Source: a virus
Length of the DNA: 64,000 bases
Virus record (IMG/VR): IMGVR_UViG_3300030329_006012
Coordinates: 62,001 to 126,000 of that record
Strand: one strand, 5' to 3'
Positions 2,084 to 20,464 of this stretch are shown piece after piece (position 1 is the first letter of the stretch; the number at the start of each line of letters is the position of its first letter). The position numbers were made by a program, and so were the translations under genes. Under the pieces are notes generated by a model. The model did no database searches and was not told the DNA's origin. It was given only the letters and a program-made list of their open reading frames with translations.

Positions 2084-2305
2084 ATGGCAACCAACGTAAC
2101 CGTTAAGCAGAGATCAGGAGAGTCATCAGAGAAGCTGATAAAGAGATTTATGAAGCAGGTGAAGAAGTTTAAAATCATCGAACAAGTTCGTGATAGAAGG
2201 TATTACAAGAAGAAGTCAGATGTGGAAAGATTGGCCCGACAAAAAGCCCACCGTGACATGCAAAAAAAGAATGCTAAGAAAAAGGCACTGGAGAAGAACG
2301 TATGA
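2084..2305 (+). CDS. rpsU: phage-encoded ribosomal protein bS21
   Basis: 73 aa, very basic. It matches the bS21 pattern end to end: a short beta start (V-T-V-K-Q-R), then E-K-L-I-K-R-F-M-K-Q-V, then I-I-E-Q-V-R-D-R-R-Y-Y-K-K-K, then a Lys/Arg helix (A-R-Q-K-A-H-R). Cellular bS21 is about 70 aa and sits on the 30S platform near the anti-Shine-Dalgarno end of 16S rRNA, where it influences initiation. Viral bS21 copies are known from environmental phages. Here the gene sits in the head-protein operon, suggesting late expression, and its stop overlaps the next ATG (ATGA). It could replace host bS21 to favour phage mRNA; that role is inference. Confidence 0.85.
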   Translation: MATNVTVKQRSGESSEKLIKRFMKQVKKFKIIEQVRDRRYYKKKSDVERLARQKAHRDMQKKNAKKKALEKNV

Positions 2306-2661
2306 GCAACTATTATATAAGAAAGCCGGGGATTAATGAAACTTCCCCGTATCAAGTTAGCGGAAAGCCATTTGCCACAGGCTCTTTTGGCACCGACGGA
2401 TCCACTGGCACCCCAACGGTGATTGAGTTTCCTACCGTTACGAGATGGATTTATATTGTCAACGCCGGCGCCCGCCCTATTAAATACGCCTTTCATGCGG
2501 ACGACTTGGCTAGTGATTATGCTGTAGTAGACACCGGCAAGCAGAGTGAGGTACTAGAAGTTAGGGCTAAAGAAATTCATTTGATTGGCGCAGGAGTTTC
2601 TGCCACCACGGATATTTCAATCTGTGCTGGCCTAACGTCCATTGCGACAGGATCACTTTAG
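2302..2661 (+). CDS. small virion protein, paralogue of next gene
   Basis: 119 aa, ATG at 2302 overlapping the bS21 stop by 4 nt with GGAG upstream. It begins S-N-Y-Y-I-R-K-P-G and contains S-P-Y-Q-V-S-G-K-P-F. A beta-rich body follows (R-W-I-Y-I-V-N-A-G-A-R-P-I-K-Y-A-F), ending C-A-G-L-T-S-I-A-T-G-S-L. The next protein shares the start (A-N-Y-Y-I-Y-K-S), the Y-Q-V-S-G-T-P box, an N-W-I-Q-I-T-N-N-S segment and the A-S-L-T-S-I-S-S-G-S end, so the two are tandem paralogues. All-beta character and location between head genes and appendage genes suggest a capsid decoration or other virion surface protein. No database family is recognised. Confidence 0.65.
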   Translation: MSNYYIRKPGINETSPYQVSGKPFATGSFGTDGSTGTPTVIEFPTVTRWIYIVNAGARPIKYAFHADDLASDYAVVDTGKQSEVLEVRAKEIHLIGAGVSATTDISICAGLTSIATGSL

Positions 2662-2669
2662 GAGTTATT

Positions 2670-3086
2670 ATGGCAAACTACTACATCTATAAAAGCAGCC
2701 TCGGCTCAGTAGCCGCATACCAAGTTAGCGGAACACCGCAACTTAAGACAGATGCTCCACTTGCGATGCCCCTCGTTGGAGATGCTGATGTTACGTCCAT
2801 AGACTTCAATTCGGTCACAAACTGGATTCAAATTACAAACAATAGTCTTGCAGATGTTCGAATTGGTTTTTCTGCCAATGGCACGAAACCTGCCACTGCA
2901 GTGGCAAACTACTTTATAGTCCCATCTTTTACCCAAACACCAAAACTTCCGCTAAAGGTCAGGCAGATATGGACAACCTCAGATACAACGATATTGGCCA
3001 AAACAATTTCTGTTGTTGCTTCGTTAACTTCCATATCTTCTGGATCGATAGAGAGCAATTGGTCGGGATCTGTAGGCGTTGGCTAA
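2670..3086 (+). CDS. small virion protein, paralogue of previous gene
   Basis: 138 aa with a good AGGAG 6-8 nt before the ATG. It has the same layout as the 119-aa neighbour: N-Y-Y-I start, Y-Q-V-S-G-T-P, a central N-W-I-Q-I-T-N strand and an A-S-L-T-S-I end, here with a Ser/Gly tail. It is somewhat longer through an insertion after the Y-Q-V-S-G box. Tandem duplication followed by divergence is the simplest explanation. Probably a virion surface or decoration protein; no enzymatic motif is seen. The 138 nt that follow hold a small GTTCG/CGAAC hairpin (3183-3196) and the ribosome binding site of the next gene, and no further gene. Confidence 0.6.
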   Translation: MANYYIYKSSLGSVAAYQVSGTPQLKTDAPLAMPLVGDADVTSIDFNSVTNWIQITNNSLADVRIGFSANGTKPATAVANYFIVPSFTQTPKLPLKVRQIWTTSDTTILAKTISVVASLTSISSGSIESNWSGSVGVG

Positions 3087-3224: not shown

Positions 3225-3629
3225 ATGACTACGAAGAAAAAAGGCATTGCTGTCATAGCTGACAGCGGCGACGTCGCATTCAAATTCCTCGATGATGGTA
3301 CAAGTATTATAGGTAAAGATGAAAACAGTGTTCATTCTTTTACCGGGACTGTCAATGTAGAAGGCAAGATGGACATCAAAGGATCTCTATCTATGTCTGA
3401 GCGCATTGGCGGCTATAAATTTGGCCTACCATCCTTGAACGAAGACGGCACTGATGATTCAGTTGCACTTGAAGAATTACGTACTAACGAAAATGGAAAG
3501 TACAACGGTTTTATGTTTTATCTAAATGCTTCGTCGTCAGCCCCATTTGATCAGGAAAAGAAGATTTACTTTTGTGAGAACGGTGTTTGGTTTCCAAGCC
3601 CCTTTGTTGCTTTTAATAGTGAAGAATAA
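3225..3629 (+). CDS. minimal appendage-module protein
   Basis: 134 aa with a GGAGGG ribosome binding site. It looks like the smallest member of a family of appendage proteins in this window. The N-terminal part (K-K-K-G-I-A-V-I-A-D, then V-H-S-F-T-G-T and I-K-G-S-L-S-M-S) resembles the starts of the proteins at 3817 and 8029. The C-terminal part (G-F-M-F-Y-L-N, then I-Y-F-C-E-N-G-V-W-F-P-S-P-F) resembles modules in the proteins at 3817, 8029 and 16685. No central repeat domain is present. It could be a cap or adaptor that multimerises with the larger appendage proteins. The 187 nt after it contain a GGTACTTGTGGGTACC inverted repeat but no gene. Confidence 0.6.
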   Translation: MTTKKKGIAVIADSGDVAFKFLDDGTSIIGKDENSVHSFTGTVNVEGKMDIKGSLSMSERIGGYKFGLPSLNEDGTDDSVALEELRTNENGKYNGFMFYLNASSSAPFDQEKKIYFCENGVWFPSPFVAFNSEE

Positions 3630-3816: not shown

Positions 3817-6800
3817 ATGGCCATTAAAAAAGTAAAAGGAATAAAAGTATCCAAGTCCCTGTCGGACAAGTTTAAGTTTGACAAAGAGGGAGAATCTCAA
3901 ATAGGCTCCGGCGGCGAAGACGTGCATGTCATTGTCGGAGAGTCGGACATTGGTAATGATATGTCTCTAACCGGACAGGCCCATTTTGAAAAAAGAATAG
4001 CAGAAACACTCTTTGGAGTCCCGCAGCTCAACGGCGCCACACAAACCGCCGAATTACAAGATCTGATAGACAATGCTGCCGACCACGAGGGTTTTATTAT
4101 TTATTTAACGGCCCCATCGACGACTGCCCCTTTTACCCAGGGAGAGAAGTTTTATTTTTGCGAAAATGGTGTTTGGCACCAAAGCCCGTTCACTTCTAGT
4201 GATTCTGATGAGCCAGATCCCGACGACACCGACGGCGACGGAATAGATGATGTTGAAGATCCGCAGGTTACAGAAACGGTATCCACCACAGGAGCCACTG
4301 TTCAGGCCAGCGCCGCCGCACTGGAAATCCCCCCAAATGCATTGCCCGCCGCAGTGGACATATCAGTTGAAGTTGTTGATCCGGCCACAGTCTCAGACGC
4401 CGTTCTTGATGAGAAAACATTAACATCAGACGTGATCACCTTAACTCCTCACGGACAACAGTTCGCTGAACCAGTGAAGGTCACGATTAATGTTTCTAAA
4501 TTCATATGGAACCCAGACATTTATATACAAAGCTCGCCCGGTGCCACTTGGGAGCTTCACGAAACCCCAGTAGATGTGGACGGGAACAAGGTTTCTTTTG
4601 AGGTAACTTCATTCAGCTCTTATGCTGTTGTGGAGCCACCCCCCTCTCAGTACATTGTACTTGTTTACGAGGGCGACGGGAACTATTCTTTCAGGGCCAA
4701 TTTCGGCGAGGCCATCGGCGGCTTTCAATTCACGTTCGACGCCGGCTCTGCAGGAACCATTACACCTACCGCCGGCGCCCAAGTCGCCGAAGCAGGATGG
4801 TACTTTACCGCAAGCCCATCCTCAAAGACGGTATTGGCGTTCCCGTTTGACGGCAGGGAAATCGGGGCTGGTGAAGTCGAGCTCATTAGGTTCCATGCCT
4901 CGTCTAATTACTTGCCAACACCTCACTCCAATCTTCTTGAACCAATAGTACTCTCAAGGATCGACGGCACTCGAATTGATATGTCCGGTTTTGATTTTGA
5001 CGTTACACAATTGGACAATGCAGGTAGTTTCTCCGGAGTGGGAGATGCTGACGGCGACGGCGCGAATGATAATGTTGACGCATTCCCGAATGATCCATCT
5101 GAAACCCAAGACACCGACGGCGACGGAGTAGGCGATAATGCAGACGACCTCCCCAATGATCCCAGTGAGACTGTAGATAGCGATGGCGATGGTGTTGGAG
5201 ACAATTCAGATTGGAAACCAAACGATCCCGCTGAATCTGCTGACACCGACGGTGACGGAGTTGGTGACAATGCCGACGCCTTCCCAAATGATGCATCTGA
5301 AACAGTAGATTCCGACAATGACGGAGTTGGAGACAATTCAGATTGGAAACCAAACGATCCCGCTGAATCTGCTGATAGTGATGGTGACGGAGTTGGAGAC
5401 AACGCCGACGCTTTCCCGAATGATGCTTTGGAGACTGTTGACACCGATGGCGATGGCACAGGCGACAATGCCGATGTCTTCCCCAACGATGCCACCGAAG
5501 ACACCGACACCGATGGCGATGGAGTTGGCGATAATCTCGACTACGCTCCAAGCGATCCGGCAATCACAATACCCCCACAGCCCCCAGCCGGCTCAACGTT
5601 CGTTCTTAGAGTCTACACAGATGATGAAGTCCACGTTCCGGGCTCCACATCCTGGGATCGGTGGGGAGGACAACTTGTTGTTGACGGAACTGATTACAGC
5701 GACCTTCTTTCTACAGAAAGTGAGGAAACCATAACACTACCATATGATGCTAATCAGGTTGGGTATAGCACTGTTGATATCAATGACATAGGCGGCGACG
5801 GGGGGATAAAAGTAGAATTTCTTCACCCCGTATATGGCTGGCAATTCCCCGTTTACAGCATGGGCTCCATGAACCAGTCCGGCTGGCCAAATGGTGCTCC
5901 CGCCGGGGCACAAAACTTTTCTGATCCAGCACACTGGGAGGGCCCCCTGCCTGTCACGTTTCAATACTTAAGCACAGACGCAACGGACTTCGTGGTCAGG
6001 GATCAGCAGAATAACGTAATGGTCTCTACCGATGATCTCGGATCTGTTCCGGCCCCCCCGATGGTATTCTTTGATAATGCCGATCTAGTTGTAAACGAGA
6101 CTCACCCCCATAACTCCAATCAGGAGGCGTATGCCGGCTGGCGCCTGATGACAGCACTGGCAGGCGATGTTTTGTCCATTGATACATCAAAGTTCACTAT
6201 TGAAGATCTAGATGATCTTCCCGCTAACACTACTGTTAAATTCTACTGGCGGATGAGAGAGGACAACGAGTCAGGAGGCAAAGATGATAAATACATTACA
6301 CCCGATGGCGACACTTCGTGGGGTCGGAATTCCGGTACCGCTACGAACACCATTACAATTCCCCAAGAATTTGCAGCGGCGAGTTGGTATGAGAAGCCGG
6401 CGAGCTCCTTTATTTATCTGGAGATGGATTTGGAAGACGCGGATGGAAATATAAAACAGATCAAAAACAACTCCGTCGGTGACACTGTGATCTACGCTTT
6501 AAATGAGAACGAAGTTGAAATGTGGAGCCGCTTAAATGACGGCCTTACAGTAGATACTCCTGTTGATTCAAGCCACATATCCCTCAGTCGTGAAAAGAAG
6601 TATGATAGCGAAGGTAGACTGTTTGTTGTGGAAGGAGACACTGTAACATTCACTCCACCAGAGCCAGTTGCCACAGTCAAGGATCCTTACGGAAACGATA
6701 TTTCAGGGCCCTTTGAAGCACAGTGGAGATCACGCGCCATCGTCGACAATGAATATGTTTATCATCTTTCTTCTGCACCTTGGATTGCCAATTTTTATTC

Positions 6801-7755
6801 CGCCTCTGACAAGCCGTCGTTCTCCATACCGGAGCTCCCAAGCCCTTCTTCTTGGTATGAGTTCTTCTATATTCAACAAAAATGGTCGAATGGAGATCAT
6901 CTTTTCCCCACCTATGGCGCCGCGTACTCACAAATACTGCGGCAGACAAAGAATGAAATGGACTATATGTGGCTCACCGAGCCGTTAGCAAGCTTCGATG
7001 CCCTGTGGGAAACAACAGAACCATCTTGGTTCGACGATGAAGATAGCCTTACCAACTCGGCCAGCATGCACCTGCGCCAACTTTATGATCTGTATTACGT
7101 CGCTGCAGCCAACAATGGCTCACTCGACGTCAGCCATTACGATGTGCACTTTGAACACCGCATCGGAGACTTGAATTCTCAAATTGCTGTAGTAGATAAA
7201 TACTTTCCTGATACCTCGACAAGTGAGCATCACGAGAAATATCAGGAACTCGTGGCATGGGCATCGACATATGAAAATCCCCTCACCCCCATGATGGAAG
7301 TTCTTCACGATGCATCAATTATAAAAGAGGAGCTCGTCGCCGACTACACCATCCACGCCCTCAGAGACTACGGAATGTATTTCCCAGAAAACATCTATGG
7401 TCTGTGGCAACACGCTTTAGACGCTGAACCGAGCGATCAAGGCACTTGGCGCTGGTGGGCCCACAACGATGACGGCACAGACCCCACAAGGTTGAATGTT
7501 GATTTTTCTTCTGTGCTGTCTGAATATCCGAACCCTGCAGACTGGGCAACAGCACAACTTAACGCACTCAGCGAGATGAGAGAAGACATATCGAACGAGT
7601 TTGGTGGTTATGATGAGGCTGCCTTCGAGTCGGCAGATTATGGAGACTACTACTGCTACTCCGGGTGGAGTAACTATGAGCAAAAAAAACCTATCTCTTA
7701 CAATTCAGTCATTGATTTTCTCACTGAAGTGAGTGAGCTAACACCACCTGAGTAA
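3817..7755 (+). CDS. large appendage protein with ZU5-like domain and TSP3-type calcium repeats
   Basis: 1312 aa. Domains in order: a shared N-terminal module (residues 1-75); the Y-F-C-E-N-G-V-W module (about 90-130); a D-D-T-D-G-D-G-I-D-D linker; a ZU5-like beta domain (about 150-275, containing L-E-I-P-P-N-A-L-P); a cohesin-like beta region (about 285-400, G-G-F-Q-F-T-F); eight thrombospondin-3-like repeats of about 23 aa (about 410-585, D-x-D-G-D-G-V-G-D-N core, calcium ligands); and an aromatic-rich C-terminal half of about 720 aa that I do not recognise. Secreted-adhesin-like architecture together with phage modules suggests a tail or head fibre that binds the host surface, stiffened by calcium. 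The ATG has AGGAGG upstream. The next gene encodes a second appendage sharing the modules. Confidence 0.7.
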   Translation: MAIKKVKGIKVSKSLSDKFKFDKEGESQIGSGGEDVHVIVGESDIGNDMSLTGQAHFEKRIAETLFGVPQLNGATQTAELQDLIDNAADHEGFIIYLTAPSTTAPFTQGEKFYFCENGVWHQSPFTSSDSDEPDPDDTDGDGIDDVEDPQVTETVSTTGATVQASAAALEIPPNALPAAVDISVEVVDPATVSDAVLDEKTLTSDVITLTPHGQQFAEPVKVTINVSKFIWNPDIYIQSSPGATWELHETPVDVDGNKVSFEVTSFSSYAVVEPPPSQYIVLVYEGDGNYSFRANFGEAIGGFQFTFDAGSAGTITPTAGAQVAEAGWYFTASPSSKTVLAFPFDGREIGAGEVELIRFHASSNYLPTPHSNLLEPIVLSRIDGTRIDMSGFDFDVTQLDNAGSFSGVGDADGDGANDNVDAFPNDPSETQDTDGDGVGDNADDLPNDPSETVDSDGDGVGDNSDWKPNDPAESADTDGDGVGDNADAFPNDASETVDSDNDGVGDNSDWKPNDPAESADSDGDGVGDNADAFPNDALETVDTDGDGTGDNADVFPNDATEDTDTDGDGVGDNLDYAPSDPAITIPPQPPAGSTFVLRVYTDDEVHVPGSTSWDRWGGQLVVDGTDYSDLLSTESEETITLPYDANQVGYSTVDINDIGGDGGIKVEFLHPVYGWQFPVYSMGSMNQSGWPNGAPAGAQNFSDPAHWEGPLPVTFQYLSTDATDFVVRDQQNNVMVSTDDLGSVPAPPMVFFDNADLVVNETHPHNSNQEAYAGWRLMTALAGDVLSIDTSKFTIEDLDDLPANTTVKFYWRMREDNESGGKDDKYITPDGDTSWGRNSGTATNTITIPQEFAAASWYEKPASSFIYLEMDLEDADGNIKQIKNNSVGDTVIYALNENEVEMWSRLNDGLTVDTPVDSSHISLSREKKYDSEGRLFVVEGDTVTFTPPEPVATVKDPYGNDISGPFEAQWRSRAIVDNEYVYHLSSAPWIANFYSASDKPSFSIPELPSPSSWYEFFYIQQKWSNGDHLFPTYGAAYSQILRQTKNEMDYMWLTEPLASFDALWETTEPSWFDDEDSLTNSASMHLRQLYDLYYVAAANNGSLDVSHYDVHFEHRIGDLNSQIAVVDKYFPDTSTSEHHEKYQELVAWASTYENPLTPMMEVLHDASIIKEELVADYTIHALRDYGMYFPENIYGLWQHALDAEPSDQGTWRWWAHNDDGTDPTRLNVDFSSVLSEYPNPADWATAQLNALSEMREDISNEFGGYDEAAFESADYGDYYCYSGWSNYEQKKPISYNSVIDFLTEVSELTPPE
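5044..5550 (+). repeat. in-gene repeats encoding TSP3-like calcium-binding units
   Basis: About eight imperfect 69-nt units encoding D-x-D-G-D-G-V-G-D-N followed by x-P-N-D-P or D-W-K-P-N-D-P. Two longer blocks (around 5197-5270 and 5330-5400) are nearly the same, implying recent duplication. The acidic-loop pattern is that of thrombospondin type 3 repeats. Confidence 0.8.
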
Positions 7756-7913: not shown

Positions 7914-7923
7914 GCTACTTACT
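7914..7923 (+). promoter_or_regulatory. candidate late promoter motif (GCTACTTACT)
   Basis: CTACTTACT is identical to the core at 15377, 57414 and 58880. It follows TTTACA and lies 105 nt before the ATG at 8029. A terminator hairpin overlaps its last base. Confidence 0.4.
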
Positions 7924-7946
7924 GGCACGAGAGTGTGCCATTTTTT
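7923..7946 (+). terminator. terminator or attenuator hairpin between appendage genes
   Basis: TGGCAC (7923-7928), loop GAGAGT, GTGCCA (7935-7940), then TTTTTT. A second small hairpin, ACTCCG/CGGAGT, is at 7969-7984. Placed directly after the promoter-like motif, this could either stop the upstream transcript or attenuate the downstream one. The 273-nt region 7756-8028 holds no gene. Confidence 0.6.
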
Positions 7947-8028: not shown

Positions 8029-10479
8029 ATGCCAGATAATAATAATAAAGTGAAGGGTTTGGCCGTTTTTAGCGGCACAAGCACCGTACACAAATTTACA
8101 GAAGACGGCAAAGCTAACCTTAATGATCTACTTGTTGTAGGTGAAGGTGAAACTAAGGACGTCGTTGAACTTAAAGGTCGTGTCTTTTTGAACGATCTTG
8201 ATAAAGATAAGCCACTGCACGAAGCCATTAACAAGATGGTCAGTGACGAGCAGAAAACACGTGGCGAAGAAGTTGCGAGATTAGACGCAGAAGATTCTCT
8301 GATCAAAGCCGAACTCGCAGGTGAAGCTAAAGCAATCCGACAAGAGCTCGCAGGTGAAGCTAAAGCAATCCGTGGAGAACTCGAAGGTGAAGCTAACGCA
8401 ATCCGTGGAGAACTCGCAGGTGAAGCTAAAGCAATCCGTGGAGAACTCGCAGGTGAAGCTAAAGCAATCCGCGAAGAACTGAAAGACGCTCGCGGCGAAC
8501 TCGGTGGCGAAGTTGCCGATGTTAGACGTGATCTCGTTGGCGAAATGGACTCAATGAAAAACGATATCGGTGGGGACATTGATCACGTCAAAGGTGAGTT
8601 GGAAACAAAGATCGACAATACCAAAAGTTCGTTGCAAACTAAAATTGATGAAAACAAAGATGCAGCCGCAAACGCTCGCTCTTTGTTGGCTCAAGACATT
8701 GCTGATAACACCGCCGCAATTGATTTTGTTAAAGATAATGCAAATCCAGACGCTATCGATTCCTTAACTGAAATCATTAAAGCGTATTCAGATGCTGACG
8801 GTGAATTGACCAATGCATTTGTTGCTTTGCTCGGTGAAGAGAAGAAAGCACGTGGCGAAGATTACATACGCCTGAAAGACAACCTTGCCAAAGAAGCCAG
8901 CATGCGCCAAGCCGACGTTCAGTACTTGGTGGGTGAAGATAACTTCTTTTTCCAAATGGGCATGGATGCTCTCAGCCAGGTTGATAAAAAGGTCGATGCC
9001 AACAACCAAATCATTGGCCAAAATGCCGTGAGTATCATCCAACAAAGCCAAAACTTTGATGGTTACGTGGTGGTTAACGACGCCAAGGTTGATGCGAATG
9101 CGACCGACATAGCCAGCCTCCAGCAATTCGCTGGTGCCGCAGTCGCGGATATCAATAATCAACAAGTGATTCAAGATAACGCCATCGCCGCTAACACCAC
9201 GTCGATTGGTCAAAATGCTCAAGATATTGCAAACAACACCGACAAAATCACTCTTGATGTTCAAACATTGGAAAATACCATCAACACCTCTTTTGGTGAA
9301 TTCAAAGATGAGATGAGTGCTGAACATGGTAAAATTCGCGATGATGTGAATGCTGAATTCGTCCGAGCGAGAGGTGAAGAAGACGCCATTCGCGCCGAAC
9401 TCGCAGGTGAAGCTAAAGCAATCCGTGGAGAACTCGCAGGTGAAGCTAACGCAATCCGCGATGAACTCAAAGGTGAAGCTAGTGCAATCCGCGAAGAACT
9501 CGCAGGTGAAGCTGATGCAATCCGTGGAGAGCTCGCAGGTGAATCTGCTTTTCTCCTTATGAGGCTCGAAGGTGAAGTAATGTCAGTCCGCGATGAACTC
9601 GCAGGTGAAACAGCATTGATTCACAGTCGCATGGGAGATCATCAGGCAACTGGTCATCCGACCCTCGCTGATGCTATCGTTGCTAATAAGAGCGCAATTG
9701 ATTTTGTTAAAGATAATGCAGATAAAGACGCTATCGATTCCTTAACTGAAATCATCAAGGCGTATTCGGATGCTGACGGTGAATTGAACAATGCATTTGT
9801 TGCTTTGCTCGGTGAAGAGACGAAAGCACGTGAAAAGGATGTCAAAAACCTGAAATCTGCACTCGAAGGTGAAACTAGAGCAATCCGCGAACAACTCGCA
9901 GGTGAAGCTAAAGCAATCCGTGGAGAACTCGCAGGTGAAGCTAAAGCAATCCGTGGAGAACTCAAAGGTGAAATCAACAACCTACAGGGTGAATTAAGCA
10001 GTGATCTTGGCGAGTTCAAAACAAAGACTGGTGAAGATCTCACATCTTTGATGAACTATTCAGACGGCCGCGATAATACTATCACGGATCATGTTAACAA
10101 CCTTACAGAAAAGACCTTTGATGGAAACAACATGAGTCTTTCTGGTTTTGCTCAATTGAATTCGGTTGAAGCAGCTTCAGTAGCTGTTACTTCTGCTTTT
10201 AGAATTCCACACATCACCACTGTTCAACAGTTGACTGATATGCAGGATACCTACACAAAAGCAAACGGTATGATGTTCTATTTGGACATGGCTGATGATG
10301 CTGGTCGTACTGGCTTCGAAGAAGGGTATAAATTATACTTCTGCGAAGGCAACGAGTGGTATCCTTCCCCGTTCCACAGTGAACCACAAAGTGAAGACTC
10401 TGAACGAACTGGCTCTACTTGGGGAGAAATCCTCACTGCTGCCGGCGAAGAACTGGAGTCCTTTGACCCTTTAGCGTAG
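8029..10479 (+). CDS. repeat-rich coiled-coil appendage protein; 0-frame product of a candidate frameshift
   Basis: 816 aa. It has the shared N-terminal module (V-K-G-L-A-V-F-S-G, V-H-K-F-T-E-D-G, then F-L-N-D). Three blocks of 11-residue units (A-I-R-G-E-L-A-G-E-A-K type, residues about 93-150, 455-505 and 615-650) predict a right-handed hendecad coiled coil. A duplicated segment (I-D-F-V-K-D-N-A, then I-D-S-L-T-E-I-I-K-A-Y-S-D-A-D-G-E-L) occurs twice. The Y-F-C-E-G-N-E-W module is near the C-terminus (about 750-785). It probably forms a long trimeric fibre shaft. The last codons are inside a CCCTTTA slip site followed by a long hairpin, so a fraction of ribosomes may continue into the ORF ending at 12329, giving about 1433 aa. 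The ribosome binding site is GGAGGG. Confidence 0.7.
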   Translation: MPDNNNKVKGLAVFSGTSTVHKFTEDGKANLNDLLVVGEGETKDVVELKGRVFLNDLDKDKPLHEAINKMVSDEQKTRGEEVARLDAEDSLIKAELAGEAKAIRQELAGEAKAIRGELEGEANAIRGELAGEAKAIRGELAGEAKAIREELKDARGELGGEVADVRRDLVGEMDSMKNDIGGDIDHVKGELETKIDNTKSSLQTKIDENKDAAANARSLLAQDIADNTAAIDFVKDNANPDAIDSLTEIIKAYSDADGELTNAFVALLGEEKKARGEDYIRLKDNLAKEASMRQADVQYLVGEDNFFFQMGMDALSQVDKKVDANNQIIGQNAVSIIQQSQNFDGYVVVNDAKVDANATDIASLQQFAGAAVADINNQQVIQDNAIAANTTSIGQNAQDIANNTDKITLDVQTLENTINTSFGEFKDEMSAEHGKIRDDVNAEFVRARGEEDAIRAELAGEAKAIRGELAGEANAIRDELKGEASAIREELAGEADAIRGELAGESAFLLMRLEGEVMSVRDELAGETALIHSRMGDHQATGHPTLADAIVANKSAIDFVKDNADKDAIDSLTEIIKAYSDADGELNNAFVALLGEETKAREKDVKNLKSALEGETRAIREQLAGEAKAIRGELAGEAKAIRGELKGEINNLQGELSSDLGEFKTKTGEDLTSLMNYSDGRDNTITDHVNNLTEKTFDGNNMSLSGFAQLNSVEAASVAVTSAFRIPHITTVQQLTDMQDTYTKANGMMFYLDMADDAGRTGFEEGYKLYFCEGNEWYPSPFHSEPQSEDSERTGSTWGEILTAAGEELESFDPLA
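8308..8481 (+). repeat. 33-bp tandem repeats, block 1
   Basis: About five in-frame copies of a 33-bp unit (core GAACTCGCAGGTGAAGC), each encoding 11 residues of hendecad coiled coil. Confidence 0.85.
8716..8854 (+). repeat. long direct repeat, copy 1 (139 bp)
   Basis: Nearly identical over 139 bp to 9694-9832 in the same reading frame, encoding I-D-F-V-K-D-N-A through V-A-L-L-G-E-E. It shows the fibre grew by internal duplication. Confidence 0.85.
9394..9548 (+). repeat. 33-bp tandem repeats, block 2
   Basis: Four to five further copies of the 33-bp hendecad-encoding unit, some with changes such as GCTAGTGCAATCC and GCTGATGCAATCC. Confidence 0.85.
9694..9832 (+). repeat. long direct repeat, copy 2 (139 bp)
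   Basis: Partner of 8716-8854; the two copies differ at only a handful of positions by eye. Confidence 0.85.
9861..9978 (+). repeat. 33-bp tandem repeats, block 3
   Basis: Three to four more copies of the same 33-bp unit as blocks 1 and 2, including CTCGAAGGTGAAACTAGAGC and two near-perfect consensus copies. Confidence 0.85.
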
Positions 10480-10529
10480 AGGGATCTAGTGGAAGTAAGC
10501 CTGATTTTTCAGGCAACTTCCCTGATCCC
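10467..10529 (+). promoter_or_regulatory. candidate -1 programmed ribosomal frameshift element
   Basis: C CCT TTA (10467-10473) is an X-XXY-YYZ heptamer in the reading frame of the 8029 ORF, two codons before its TAG (10477-10479). After a 7-nt spacer (10474-10480) comes a long stem-loop: GGGATC (10481-10486) with GATCCC (10524-10529), GGAAGT (10491-10496) with ACTTCC (10516-10521), and GCCTG (10499-10503) with CAGGC (10510-10514), 17 pairs with small interior loops. A -1 slip enters the frame of the ORF ending at 12329, which is open from 10467 with no stop. All parts of a classical -1 signal are present at standard spacing. Confidence 0.7.
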
Positions 10530-10577
10530 GGAGTAAATCCATTTGCTGGATACTCTTGGTCTGCCAGTGTTAGGAGC

Positions 10578-12329
10578 ATGGTTGAGCCCGACGGCTTTAT
10601 CTCTCCTTCTGCATGGGCTGCCCTTCCGGCTTCAAATGTTGAACCGTGGGACGCTATTAAGGACAATGCTGAATGGCTTGGCCTATGGAACACCTATGCA
10701 TCTGCCCAGATAGAGCATGCTCGCCAATATTGGGAGTGGCTCGCTCTTTGGGAGGGTGGCAAACCACCTTCTTCAGTAGAGGCACTGGCTGATGCTGCAA
10801 AAGATGCCCAAACCGCGCTGCAAAACGCCATCAATGATGGAGAAGTCGGCCGCGCTGTAGCTGGAGCATATTTAGCAGCAGGCGTCCAAGATAAGAGAGA
10901 TATAGACTCTTACTCTACTGATATGATGGATGAGGCGAAAAAATCATATGACGCGGAGCGAAAAGTCATGTTTGGTCAACTGAAAGACTTTGAAAGGCTT
11001 GTCGTGGATATGAGAAGAAAGTTCACTATTGGTGTCCGAGAAATGCTCATCGAAGCAGCTAAGTCTAGTTCCGGAGTAATTAATGATCATCCGGTCATTT
11101 CTTATACTGGAAGTTACACCATCAACGTGCTTCAGGGCGATGCCGCACCAGACCTTTTGGCTGGCGTGACTGCTACTGATGACCAAGACGGTGATTTGAC
11201 AGCTTCAATTGTCGTAGATGACGATGGCCTCGACATGAGTGAGGTTGGGTCATACACTATCGTTTATAGTGTTACAGATTCCAACGGCTCTGAGTCGTCC
11301 AATAATCGAATGGTTCAGGTTGAGCCAGATGTCAACTCTTTGTTGGCTTCTGATCTTCCGGTACCAACCCTTGACGGGTTTGATTCTGAAGGACGAGCTG
11401 TTATCTCAACAGGAGAAATAAGTCTCCCATTTAATCCTAATCATTTTTATTATGCGGATTCAAATGGAGATAGGTACTTCCTAGAGCTCAAGACCGGATG
11501 GTATCGCTTTGGCGACACTTCCAATGTTGTGTGGGGATCCAGTGTCCTTCTTAATGCAAATGCATCGCAATGGACAGAAGACGAGAATGGCAGATTTGTC
11601 AGTCCCGGCTGGACCTATGCGATGTCGTGTCAAGACGGTACTCCAGAGAACTACACGAATTCTTCGGCCTATGGCAAGAAAATATATGACGGTGACACCT
11701 ACTGGTACAAGTTAGATTGGAGGAAGTATAACCAGAACACATATCAATATACCGATGTGCACAATTCTGGTGATACACTTTCCGTCTCGCTTCCATCAAG
11801 GCCGGCTCCAACATTTCCTGCAATTGTGACAACGGATGTTTCATTTGTTCCTGACAACTTGCGAGACAATCCCCACAATGTAGCTGGAATTTTGGATTTT
11901 GAAATGCCTTGGAGGTTTACGCAAGATCCAAGTTCATACATGGACAGTGGCAACAGAGTAGTTCTGGATAATGGAGATACGCTATATGCTCAAGCCCACA
12001 CCAGAACCAAGGTTTTCCGCGATGGAGAGCAGATAGCGTGGTCTGGCTGGTCTCAGCGTTGGGGATCCGATTATACTTATGTCGATTTAGTCGATGACGG
12101 AAACGGATTGTATCAGATCACCAATGGTGGTACAGACACAAGAACACTTAACTTCTGGAATCACAGCACTCAAGAACTATCTTACGAAATGCAGTGGGGC
12201 GATACAGTACGCTTGACTCATGGTATGGTTCTTTATTTGTACGATGCCGATGGCAACTATGTTGCGTCGCTGGACAACTTTGGTGTAACACCAATGGTTA
12301 GCGAATTTGTTCTAGAAGAAGACGAATAA
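10578..12329 (+). CDS. appendage C-terminal extension with Ig-like (DUF5011-type) domain
   Basis: 583 aa counted from the first ATG. The frame is open back to 10467 and the intervening 35 codons look coding (Gly/Ser/Pro-rich linker). The ATG at 10578 has AGGAG only 1 nt away, too close for normal initiation. I therefore think this part is mainly made as a -1 frameshift extension of the coiled-coil fibre. Visible parts are a helical N-terminal third (about 1-150), an Ig-like domain (about 170-255, V-T-A-T-D-D-Q-D-G-D-L-T and Y-T-I-V-Y-S-V-T-D), and a beta- and aromatic-rich C-terminal region of unknown fold. It probably provides a host-binding head for the fibre. A strong terminator follows. 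Confidence 0.7.
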   Translation: MVEPDGFISPSAWAALPASNVEPWDAIKDNAEWLGLWNTYASAQIEHARQYWEWLALWEGGKPPSSVEALADAAKDAQTALQNAINDGEVGRAVAGAYLAAGVQDKRDIDSYSTDMMDEAKKSYDAERKVMFGQLKDFERLVVDMRRKFTIGVREMLIEAAKSSSGVINDHPVISYTGSYTINVLQGDAAPDLLAGVTATDDQDGDLTASIVVDDDGLDMSEVGSYTIVYSVTDSNGSESSNNRMVQVEPDVNSLLASDLPVPTLDGFDSEGRAVISTGEISLPFNPNHFYYADSNGDRYFLELKTGWYRFGDTSNVVWGSSVLLNANASQWTEDENGRFVSPGWTYAMSCQDGTPENYTNSSAYGKKIYDGDTYWYKLDWRKYNQNTYQYTDVHNSGDTLSVSLPSRPAPTFPAIVTTDVSFVPDNLRDNPHNVAGILDFEMPWRFTQDPSSYMDSGNRVVLDNGDTLYAQAHTRTKVFRDGEQIAWSGWSQRWGSDYTYVDLVDDGNGLYQITNGGTDTRTLNFWNHSTQELSYEMQWGDTVRLTHGMVLYLYDADGNYVASLDNFGVTPMVSEFVLEEDE

Positions 12330-12383: not shown

Positions 12384-12413
12384 AAAGCACCCCCCTTGCG
12401 GGGGTGCTTTTTT
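12384..12413 (+). terminator. strong rho-independent terminator
   Basis: AAAGCACCCCCC (12384-12395), loop TTGC, GGGGGTGCTTT (12400-12410), then T-run. It closes the appendage operon. A weaker CTCTC/GAGAG hairpin lies just upstream near 12350. The 217-nt region 12330-12546 has no gene. Confidence 0.9.
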
Positions 12414-16684: not shown

Positions 16685-19600
16685 GTGTCAGATAACGACA
16701 ACAAATGGGAACAACCGGCAGCTCCTCCTCCCCCTCTGTTTACGGGTAAGAAAGAAAAAGACCTCGTAAAACAGGTGACTGATGAGGTCATTGAACGTGT
16801 TATTGGCACGTCCATACTTTACTACCCCATCAGCCTTGCACATTCAGATTACCATCCGCTCTATGGCGAGGCCATAAAGAAGACCTATCTGCCTCCCGTC
16901 CACGTAGAAGTGCTTGCAGAGTGGGAGGGCGAAGAGACAACCACTACGGGATTTGGCATAGATAAGAAATCTTCTGTGACCATTCACTTCCACAAGCGCC
17001 GCCTGACGGAAGATCAGAATTTATTCGTCCGAGAGGGAGATTTCATCCAATATGGCGAGCAGAAGTACGAGATCATCACCCTTGGGCAACCAAAGCAGCT
17101 ATTTGGCCAGCCAGACTCTAAGATAGAGATTTCGGCCAAGTGTATTCGCGCCAGAGACGGCACTTTCCCATCGGAAGCATACCCCAATCCGGAAGAAGAT
17201 GATCCGCGATTCACCGCACCACCAGCCTGCGATCCAGTTCATGAAATACGAGTTTTAACGGGAGATACCACATCTACTGGCGGCGCCGGAGAGCAGCCAT
17301 GCGAACAGGTCTACGAGAGACCCGGCACCCCGCCACCACCACTCTTTACAGGCAAGAAAGAGTCGAACTTGGTGAAGCAGGTCGGAGATGAACTACTAGA
17401 GAGGGTCATTGGCCAGCAAATAGTTTATTTTCCAATCTCTCTAGGAAACTCAGATTATCACGAGCTCTACGGAGAGTCAATAAATAAGACTTTTTTGCCA
17501 CCCATTAGGGTTTTCGCCGCCGTAGACTGGAAGGGCAGCGATACAACCACCACTAATTTTGGGATTGACAGGAAGTCCGAGATTGAGGTGAAGTTTCACA
17601 AGAGGCGCCTCACAGAAGACCAAAATCTCTTTGTCCGCGAAGGTGATTTTGTCCTCTATGGTAAAATATTGTATGAGATCGTTACAGTCGGCCAACCCAG
17701 ACTTCTTTTCGGAAAGATAGATGAGAAGTATGAGGTTGTTGCAAGCTGCATTAGGGCTAGAGAAGGAACTTTCAGGCTATCAGAGGTGCAGGGTACAGTT
17801 AGTGAGTTTGATCTTGATTCTGTAACGGCATGCGAAAATGCCAATCTCGTAATTCCCGACGGCGTTGATAATACCATGTCAAATGTTGGCGCTGGAGCAG
17901 GGGTATTTAAGAATAAGACAGGCATCAACTTTAACATGAAAACTTTGGTGGAGGGGGACAACATAACCCTCACTTCCACTGCAGATGAGATAACCATCAA
18001 TTCTGTTGGTGCAGGCGGTGATTGGGATGGACAGAGAGATGGCGACGCAGCGATTACGGGGTCTCTTGTAGTGACCGACTCCACCTTTTTTGGAGACGCC
18101 CTTAGCGACACTCACACGTTTACAGGCTCAATCCTCCAAACAGGCTCAGGTGGGACATCTATATTTAATGATGAAGTCCGCGTTGCGGGAAATTTTTCTG
18201 CATCGTATCTTTCTGGCGACGGCTCCGGCCTTACCGGAGTAACAGGAGATTGGGATGGTCAACACATTGGCAACGCAGCAATTACAGGTAGCTTAGAGGT
18301 CTTAAATTCAACCACTTTCGGGGCCCTCTCAACAGACGTACACAAATTCACAGGATCTCTTCAAATCGGTAGCGCATCGGCCCAACACGCATCTAACTTA
18401 TCTCACGGAGGCGTACCAGCCTTCGAGGTTAGAAACAATGGACAACTTAGAACTAAAAACGACGGCGCCAAAGGATTTGAATTCGTGTCCGAGAATACCC
18501 CCAACGGCGGCGGCGGCAATGTTGCCACATTTTATATGGGCGACACCGATCCCGAAAACCCGAAAGAGGTTATGCGATTGGACAGAGCCGGCGGCTTTTA
18601 TGGCAAAGAAGCTCTGCATCTTACGTCACAGGGCTCTGGAGACAACAGGGATGTCCGCATCGCCGGCGCCTTTGATGAGGCGGGCGGCCATGCCGGCATC
18701 TCTCCCTATTATGACGCTACTGACGACGGATTAACCGGCTCCATGCTTGGGAGAGCTCACAAGAGGTGGAAAGAGGTCCACGCGAGAACAGCGTCTTTTG
18801 AAGAAGCCCGAAAGGTGGTTCCAACCACCTCCATCAATCATCACGGCTACGAACCCTACCTGGCAAACCACAACTATCTAACAAACTTTACAGCATGGGG
18901 GAACCCTAGTGTCTATGACCCGCTTACCAACAACATACTGGCGCGAGGAGATATCAAATTTGATATAAGTAGAACAGTGTATGACTCGGCCGGAGTGGAG
19001 ATTGCAAGTGATGCCTCTGGCAATATTGCCTATCCCGCAGGTCCACTTAGCAATACTGGGCTTGGGCTCCCATTCGATGGGGTCTATCAACAGTTGTGCT
19101 GGAACCCGCTAACGGCGAGCACCGTCATTAAGACAAACATTGATTTCACTACTAACGAATACTATGGCCCGGCAACCTCATCTATAGTCTACTCTCTTGG
19201 GAAGGTGGTGGTCCACTATGCCTCTAACGCAACCGGATCGTCCGTATCGGGGAGAATAAGGAGATACGACAAGAACCTCAGCTCCTCATTTTGGCATCCA
19301 CTGGATAACCTGCAAGATATTTCCACAGATCCCAGATACACAATTCATATGCTGGATATCCCCAATTACAACTATATGGAGGAGCTAGAAATCTCTATAA
19401 CAGCATCTGAAAATGGCTACAATCTGGGCGGCGCCCCCTCTTATATGGCTATCTCGGAAATTGAGTGCTTCCTTGACAATCTCATTCCCTATAATCACAA
19501 TCTGCCCAAAATTGATGGATATAGCGACAATGCTATGTACGGCGACTTGGATATGCGAGGAGGGAATGATCAAAAGAATATCGTTTTAGATGCCAGCACC

Positions 19601-20464
19601 GGAGATATTACGATGTCTGGCACTCTTTCAACTCATGGGGTGACAATGAGGGGCCACATCCTGCCAGATGAGGACGACGTTTATGACATAGGATCGCCAT
19701 CTAAGCAGATTAGAGATATCTATGTGTCCACCGGATCGATCATTTTTGGCGGCACTCACGCGATAAGTATTGATCCCGAATCCAACGGCTTTTCCTTTGG
19801 TGTGGTGGACGGCGTAGATGTTCCAGCCGCTGGCTTTACTATACCGCAATTAACTAACGAAGAACTCTCCTCTTTGCAGCCCAAAAACGGAACAATGGTC
19901 TATGACACCACTCAGGAAAAATTCCTTTTTTGTCAAGGCGGAGAATGGCTCTCGCTGGGATCTCAATCCGGAGGAGGAGAACAACCTACGATTCCACGAG
20001 GATCGGGAATCCTCAGCCTGACGGATGATGGCGACGGCCCCAATCGTCAGCTGCTGGAGGAGTATGCGGAGAATTCTGTTAGTTATTCTGGGAAGAGTTT
20101 ATATTTGGCCAATGTATCGGGAATACCACTAGAAGCATTCAGCCAAGGTGCCAAGTTCTACTTTAATGAAGGTGGTGTGTGGCACCCATCCCACTTTTTC
20201 AGCAATGATAAGGTTGAGTATCAAGGCGATCCGATTTATCCTGATATGCAAGATATATTATCTCTCAATGGTGCATCCGCTGCAGATCGGGCAATTCTCA
20301 CCGGATTGGATCAAAATGCGTCATCTTACGGCGGCCGAGCTATTTACTTAGGTGCAACCGGAAGTGCTCCCATTGGAGTGTTTTCCCAAGAGAATAAATA
20401 CTACTTTAATGAAGGTGGGGTTTGGCATGCCAGCAGCTTCTATACACTGAAGGATGAGGATTAA
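16685..20464 (+). CDS. neck protein with duplicated gp14-like domain fused to appendage modules
   Basis: 1259 aa, GTG start with GGAGG upstream. Two copies of the same domain occupy residues about 12-165 and 215-370. Each has P-P-P-P-L-F-T-G-K-K-E, Y-Y-P-I-S-L or Y-F-P-I-S-L, F-H-K-R-R-L-T-E-D-Q-N-L-F-V-R-E-G-D-F and I-R-A-R-D/E-G-T-F. I relate it to gp14-type neck proteins. After these come fibre-like segments with T-H-T-F-T-G-S and V-H-K-F-T-G-S, a long beta region, and a C-terminal part with Y-F-N-E-G-G-V-W modules (two copies at about 1160 and 1240, plus F-L-F-C-Q-G-G-E-W at about 1080). The protein thus links the neck to the appendage family at 3225, 3817 and 8029. Whisker or collar fibre function is inferred. 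Confidence 0.65.
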   Translation: MSDNDNKWEQPAAPPPPLFTGKKEKDLVKQVTDEVIERVIGTSILYYPISLAHSDYHPLYGEAIKKTYLPPVHVEVLAEWEGEETTTTGFGIDKKSSVTIHFHKRRLTEDQNLFVREGDFIQYGEQKYEIITLGQPKQLFGQPDSKIEISAKCIRARDGTFPSEAYPNPEEDDPRFTAPPACDPVHEIRVLTGDTTSTGGAGEQPCEQVYERPGTPPPPLFTGKKESNLVKQVGDELLERVIGQQIVYFPISLGNSDYHELYGESINKTFLPPIRVFAAVDWKGSDTTTTNFGIDRKSEIEVKFHKRRLTEDQNLFVREGDFVLYGKILYEIVTVGQPRLLFGKIDEKYEVVASCIRAREGTFRLSEVQGTVSEFDLDSVTACENANLVIPDGVDNTMSNVGAGAGVFKNKTGINFNMKTLVEGDNITLTSTADEITINSVGAGGDWDGQRDGDAAITGSLVVTDSTFFGDALSDTHTFTGSILQTGSGGTSIFNDEVRVAGNFSASYLSGDGSGLTGVTGDWDGQHIGNAAITGSLEVLNSTTFGALSTDVHKFTGSLQIGSASAQHASNLSHGGVPAFEVRNNGQLRTKNDGAKGFEFVSENTPNGGGGNVATFYMGDTDPENPKEVMRLDRAGGFYGKEALHLTSQGSGDNRDVRIAGAFDEAGGHAGISPYYDATDDGLTGSMLGRAHKRWKEVHARTASFEEARKVVPTTSINHHGYEPYLANHNYLTNFTAWGNPSVYDPLTNNILARGDIKFDISRTVYDSAGVEIASDASGNIAYPAGPLSNTGLGLPFDGVYQQLCWNPLTASTVIKTNIDFTTNEYYGPATSSIVYSLGKVVVHYASNATGSSVSGRIRRYDKNLSSSFWHPLDNLQDISTDPRYTIHMLDIPNYNYMEELEISITASENGYNLGGAPSYMAISEIECFLDNLIPYNHNLPKIDGYSDNAMYGDLDMRGGNDQKNIVLDASTGDITMSGTLSTHGVTMRGHILPDEDDVYDIGSPSKQIRDIYVSTGSIIFGGTHAISIDPESNGFSFGVVDGVDVPAAGFTIPQLTNEELSSLQPKNGTMVYDTTQEKFLFCQGGEWLSLGSQSGGGEQPTIPRGSGILSLTDDGDGPNRQLLEEYAENSVSYSGKSLYLANVSGIPLEAFSQGAKFYFNEGGVWHPSHFFSNDKVEYQGDPIYPDMQDILSLNGASAADRAILTGLDQNASSYGGRAIYLGATGSAPIGVFSQENKYYFNEGGVWHASSFYTLKDED

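Follow-up and report, generated by a model that had tools for sequence, protein, structure and literature searches.

Through programmed ribosomal frameshifting (PRF), a variety of phage proteins gain an Ig-like domain at the C-terminus, as in T3, A2, A118, A500 and PSA (Atkins et al., 2016, PMC5009743), and domain shuffling has been proposed to place such domains sometimes in frame and sometimes not (PMC5009743). In T3 (gp10B), Lactobacillus A2 and Listeria A118/A500/PSA, as proposed for the locus described here, one gene gives two products, with the Ig-like domain of the longer one encoded in a shifted frame close to the 3' end; the shift is -1 in T3 and A2, as we propose here, and the same kind of domain is found in frame elsewhere (PMC5009743). 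The carriers in those phages are major capsid or major tail proteins, whereas here the carrier is a coiled-coil fibre, one of a tandem family in an uncultured T4-like phage, with a multidomain extension of 618 aa that would be reached through C_CCU_UUA.

Extensions of FN3 or carbohydrate-binding type are added via +1 shifts in SPP1 (PMC9022992) and in lactococcal 936 phages (PMC4759559, PMC6669499). The 936 MTP-TpeX protein likewise has a large frameshift extension on a fraction of a virion protein; there the extension sits after an Ig-fold adhesin domain, and TpeX binds host cells, as was shown with GFP fusions (PMC4759559, PMC6669499). That shift is +1, affects the major tail protein at CCC.UAG and was seen in virions by Western blot, whereas the one predicted here would be -1 and on a fibre. 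SPP1 gp17.1/gp17.1* similarly includes a second form with a C-terminal FN3 domain (Ig-like fold), located on the tail surface, but involves a +1 shift, a tail tube protein and a short extension (PMC9022992). The layout of the signal is that of the E. coli dnaX and IS911-type -1 cassettes (SD-like element, in-frame heptamer, stem-loop at 5-8 nt), which differ in their heptamer and have unrelated gene products; the SD-like element here could also be due to chance.

Frameshift-added Ig-like or carbohydrate-binding extensions of virion proteins were thus already described (PMC5009743, PMC9022992, PMC6669499), which does not support the view, taken in a sequence-only reading of this DNA, that the locus represents a new way to set the ratio of tips. 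The mechanism is known, as are frameshift-metered adhesive extensions. What is new is the carrier, an apparent coiled-coil fibre from a tandem family of T4-like phages, together with the pairing of this heptamer and this hairpin and the fact that sister phages have in-frame counterparts. Our literature search, which covered open-licence papers, retrieved no earlier case of PRF on such a fibre.

We analyzed a stretch of 64,000 nucleotides (hereafter the window) that belongs to a 190-kb uncultured virus record with a gp23-type capsid, a T4-type head protease and a DNA polymerase. The following features of the window are used below:

7923-7940, + strand: terminator-like site upstream of the unit (terminator prediction)
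8029-10479, + strand: fibre gene, zero frame, 816 aa, 88 kDa, comprising an anchor, a coiled-coil-like middle, a cap module and a 34-aa tail
about 8044-8160, + strand: N-terminal anchor of the 8029 fibre, motif K.KGIAV....HKL.DDG...G
about 10210-10374, + strand: cap module of the 8029 fibre (..KLYFCEGNEWYPSPF), common to the paralogs 3225-3629, 3817-7755 and 16685-20464 and to 59 IMG/VR loci
10455-10458, + strand: GGAG, a possible SD-like stimulator, 8 nt 5' of the heptamer and 9 nt before its second base
10467-10473, + strand: slippery heptamer C CCT TTA, of the X_XXY_YYZ type and in frame with ORF 8029
10473-12329, + strand: -1 frame extension of 618 aa, with 35 start-less coding-like codons, a helical region, an Ig-like domain and a beta-rich end
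10474-10480, + strand: 7-nt spacer GCGTAGA, with the zero-frame TAG inside it at 10477-10479
10481-10529, + strand: hairpin of 20 bp with a 4-nt UUUU loop, a predicted stimulator (fold computation)
12384-12410, + strand: intrinsic terminator ending the unit (terminator prediction)

ORF 8029-10479 ends with the codons GAC CCT TTA GCG TAG, and the region across the heptamer reads CCCTTTAGCGTAG in the assembled sequence (one metagenomic assembly). The hairpin is made of four stacked segments of 6+2+6+6 pairs, with an MFE of about -29 to -31 kcal/mol (-30.6 kcal/mol for the 51-nt segment), and its distance of 7 nt from the heptamer lies within the range of 5-8 nt given in the literature for -1 PRF. 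The locus has a zero-frame X_XXY_YYZ heptamer, a stable structure 5-8 nt downstream and a long -1 ORF devoid of a good start, three of the features by which -1 PRF sites are recognized. The sequence-only reading had pointed out the in-frame heptamer, the spacer that encloses the zero-frame stop, a -1 frame open for about 618 codons and a sole nearby ATG (10578) with its Shine-Dalgarno 1 nt away, and each of these was confirmed; it was also right about the presence and position of the hairpin, which it had described as 17 bp in three stacked stems rather than 20 bp in four segments.

SD-like elements stimulate -1 shifting when located 6-17 nt before the slippery motif (PMC4066793), a window that the spacing of GGAG 10455-10458 fits. 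Such words occur by chance at ~10% of in-frame positions, so this element is weak evidence. In E. coli, C_CCU_UUA gives more than 0.1% frameshifting even when no stimulator is present and falls outside the most efficient class, and E. coli may not resemble the host of this phage. A search of the 190-kb genome with ARAGORN returned no tRNA genes, hence none that could bias the slip, and an Rfam search of the hairpin gave no match.

We assessed the hairpin against several backgrounds. The 51-nt segment had a z-score of -8.3, with 0/200 dinucleotide shuffles as good, and is the strongest 51-nt fold on the + strand of the whole 190-kb genome. To survey ORF ends, we considered 1078 distinct ends of ORFs of at least 150 codons from this genome and the relative loci: in 44, a slippery heptamer lay no more than about 36 nt from the stop, and a single one, that of ORF 8029, combined a heptamer with a downstream fold of -20 kcal/mol or below (next best, -11.5). 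We then rewrote the -1 peptide over the hairpin 5000 times using the synonymous codons of the genome. None of these 5000 recodings was as stable as the hairpin (mean -13.6, minimum -28.0, observed -30.6), and the hairpin is therefore not a by-product of the encoded peptide.

After the shift, the -1 frame stays open for 618 codons, up to 12329, giving a fusion of 815+618 = 1433 aa with a computed mass of 156 kDa; the short form has 816 aa and a mass of 88 kDa. The Ig-like domain PF16403 matches the extension at residues 212-283 (48.6 bits for a cut-off of 27), and a structure of the extension predicted from the single sequence was of low confidence (pLDDT 38.7). Codon usage over the -1 codons at 10473-10577 is coding-like, with 1.5% of off-frame windows scoring higher and 19% of true coding windows scoring lower. 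The -1 frame has no in-frame ATG, GTG, TTG, CTG, ATT, ATC or ATA before ATG 10578, so near-cognate starts are absent as well, and at this first possible start AGGAG is only 1 nt away, compared with several nt for most other listed genes. Because these codons look coding and have no start, and because the SD of ATG 10578 is so close, a shift from the upstream ORF appears to be the simplest route to their translation. The terminator-like site at 7923-7940 and the terminator at 12384-12410 bracket both ORFs, with none at the hairpin; two weaker + strand matches within the first ORF (9535 and 10170) are at the level expected by chance.

Taken from the sequence, these observations make it very probable that the gene of a putative virion fibre ends in a -1 programmed ribosomal frameshift site. 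Were one base missing near CCCTTTA through a sequencing or assembly error, the real gene would be a single in-frame long fibre, and exactly this frame relation is expected if CCC or TTT is undercalled by one base; some relatives also have in-frame extensions after the cap. We nevertheless hold this to be very improbable, since the runs are only 3 bases long and not error-prone, and an error would neither place the strongest + strand fold of the genome 7 nt past a perfect in-frame heptamer nor produce synonymous-site structure beyond what the peptide dictates (0/5000). The chances are similarly slim that the two ORFs are separate genes, or a recently split gene, with the second translated from ATG 10578, for instance by ribosomes that reinitiate once they have terminated at the TAG, 98 nt upstream. 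Although AGGAG directly precedes this ATG and translational coupling is frequent in phage late genes, the SD spacing is 1 nt where most other listed genes have several, the 35 upstream -1 codons look coding with no start of any kind, the isolated C-terminal part would be devoid of an anchor, and heptamer and hairpin would be a coincidence. We give even less credence to a hairpin with another purpose (a terminator, an RNase site or a regulatory stem) beside an incidental heptamer: strong hairpins are common between cistrons, but this one has a U-tract on neither strand, was not flagged as a terminator, has no Rfam match and lies inside coding-like -1 sequence at the exact spacing of PRF.

Of another order is the possibility, compatible with PRF, that the ratio of products is not functionally tuned: the cassette would have landed out of frame by recombination, and a real shift would merely rescue some of its expression. 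This explanation has a substantial chance of being right, somewhat short of even, as relatives use in-frame Ig-like extensions or none, and the same view has been put forward for phage Ig-like domains (PMC5009743). On the other side, the hairpin far exceeds the needs of the encoded peptide, which suggests selection for a strong stimulator.

To place the fibre in its family, we examined its locus and its relatives. Genes 3225, 3817 and 8029 are tandem paralogs, flanked by the head protease gene on one side and the scaffold/capsid genes on the other, with anchor and cap in common, and comparable tandem fibres are found at the same place, upstream of gp22/gp23, in many IMG/VR contigs of uncultured T4-like phages. 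The fibre locus is thus within the gp21/gp22/gp23 head cluster, and the architecture of its products is fibre-like; judging from gene position, the products of the 8029 family may be head or neck fibres. That the tip binds the host, as the sequence-only reading had it, is not supported by this setting, nor by the extension, in which only the Ig-like domain is recognizable. The cap carries the motif K.YFCE...W.PSPF; in an AlphaFold2 model it is confident (block mean pLDDT about 82-93), and the 34-aa tail that follows is disordered. A search with the cap fold against PDB and BFVD gave no significant match, and no Pfam or named PHROG family was found for the anchor or the cap.

Arrays of 2-5 paralogous fibre genes lie in tandem beside scaffold/capsid genes both in the window (3225-3629, 3817-7755, 8029-10479) and at the relative loci L090, L109, L119 and L127; anchor and cap are common to the members, and the middles and extensions are unrelated, making this a mosaic appendage locus. 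In the paralog at 3817-7755, the cap is near the N-terminus, and weak ZU5 and thrombospondin type 3-like repeats (DTDGDGVGDN) lie between it and a long extension. Another conserved protein, encoded immediately downstream of the capsid genes (16685-20464 in the window; also L008, L121 and L118), has the cap at its end as well; in the window it shows a weak N-terminal match to a head-closure protein (Hc2), two copies of the cap and about 1000 residues of inserted sequence, and many of its relatives are 263 aa long. One or two copies of small proteins of 119-140 aa (YY.YKPGIG..G.Y..SG.PF) are encoded between the head protease and the fibres in many relatives (window 2302-3086, L108 3640-4038, L109 1078-1886) and are perhaps decoration proteins. 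The head protease ORF itself (208-834) overlaps ORF 819-1685, in its -1 frame, with an in-frame TTTAAAG near 810-834; the downstream fold is only -1.6 kcal/mol, and this is probably an ordinary overlap with a GTG start.

We compared what follows the cap in 52 distinct cap-bearing ORFs. A tail of 2-8 aa was present in 41, and 9 had 95 aa or more added in frame; the remaining two were an ORF with a 20-aa tail and ORF 8029, alone in having a 34-aa tail that ends at a frameshift element. L119 (MCP 76% identical) has an in-frame Ig-like domain after the cap at the equivalent place (PF16403, E-value 8e-5, below the curated cut-off), and in-frame Ig-like stretches were also detected in L109 (weak matches) and L108 (above the cut-off), while the fibre of L101/L102 (MCP 73-74% identical) ends at the cap. 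Both product types are thus found as normal genes in relatives, and this phage seems to derive the two from a single gene. The products of 816 aa and about 1433 aa, the longer one Ig-like, that had been predicted from the sequence follow from the -1 PRF reading, and relatives encode both kinds as ordinary in-frame genes.

Searches for closer kin were negative. Viral and genome contigs contained no full-length relative of the extension, of which the Ig domain was the only part matched among phages; a comparison with phages gave no DNA similarity and no protein relative of the fibre, and a search with the middle region of the fibre yielded no relatives. A scaffold-based search retrieved only relatives devoid of the frameshift element, and one with the N-terminal anchor led mostly to loci that were part of the comparison anyway. 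No relative sharing the element or the extension was therefore found for a check of conservation or covariation, the loci compared being in frame or having no extension. The sequence-only reading had proposed that missing conservation of hairpin and heptamer would count against the frameshift in relatives whose two frames are still separate; the relatives found here do not bear on it in this way, because their frames are not separate.

On the -1 frameshift model, a ribosome with CCU in the P site and UUA in the A site would be delayed when the 20-bp hairpin reaches the mRNA channel, and the SD-like GGAG upstream might assist slippage. A fraction of ribosomes would re-pair to CCC and UUU and go on in the -1 frame, and the others would terminate at the UAG one codon further. 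One mRNA would in this manner give a short fibre of 816 aa, ending in the cap and a flexible 34-aa tail, and, at a lower level, a long fibre of 1433 aa whose 618-aa extension includes the Ig-like domain; having the same anchor, short and long fibres could mix in one particle. We infer from sequence the slippage itself, its rate, the co-assembly of the two forms and any contact of the extension with the host or another surface. The extension probably derives from a cassette with an Ig-like domain that was inserted in the wrong frame, a route suggested for phage Ig-like domains in general (PMC5009743). We advance tentatively, at slightly less than even chances, that frameshifting sets the length and the Ig-bearing tip of one array member, so that short and long fibres would occur in a set proportion on each particle, where sister phages hard-wire either form; a tuning of host-binding tips by frameshifting is speculative.

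This candidate carries a warning for annotation, as standard gene callers divide the fibre gene and assign a false start to its second half. It would extend frameshift-made virion-protein mosaics from capsid and tail-tube proteins to an apparent coiled-coil fibre in widespread uncultured T4-like phages. The relatives provide a natural comparison of three arrangements downstream of the same cap (a stop, an in-frame Ig-like domain and the probable frameshift), and selection on the ratio of Ig-bearing to plain appendages is therefore testable.
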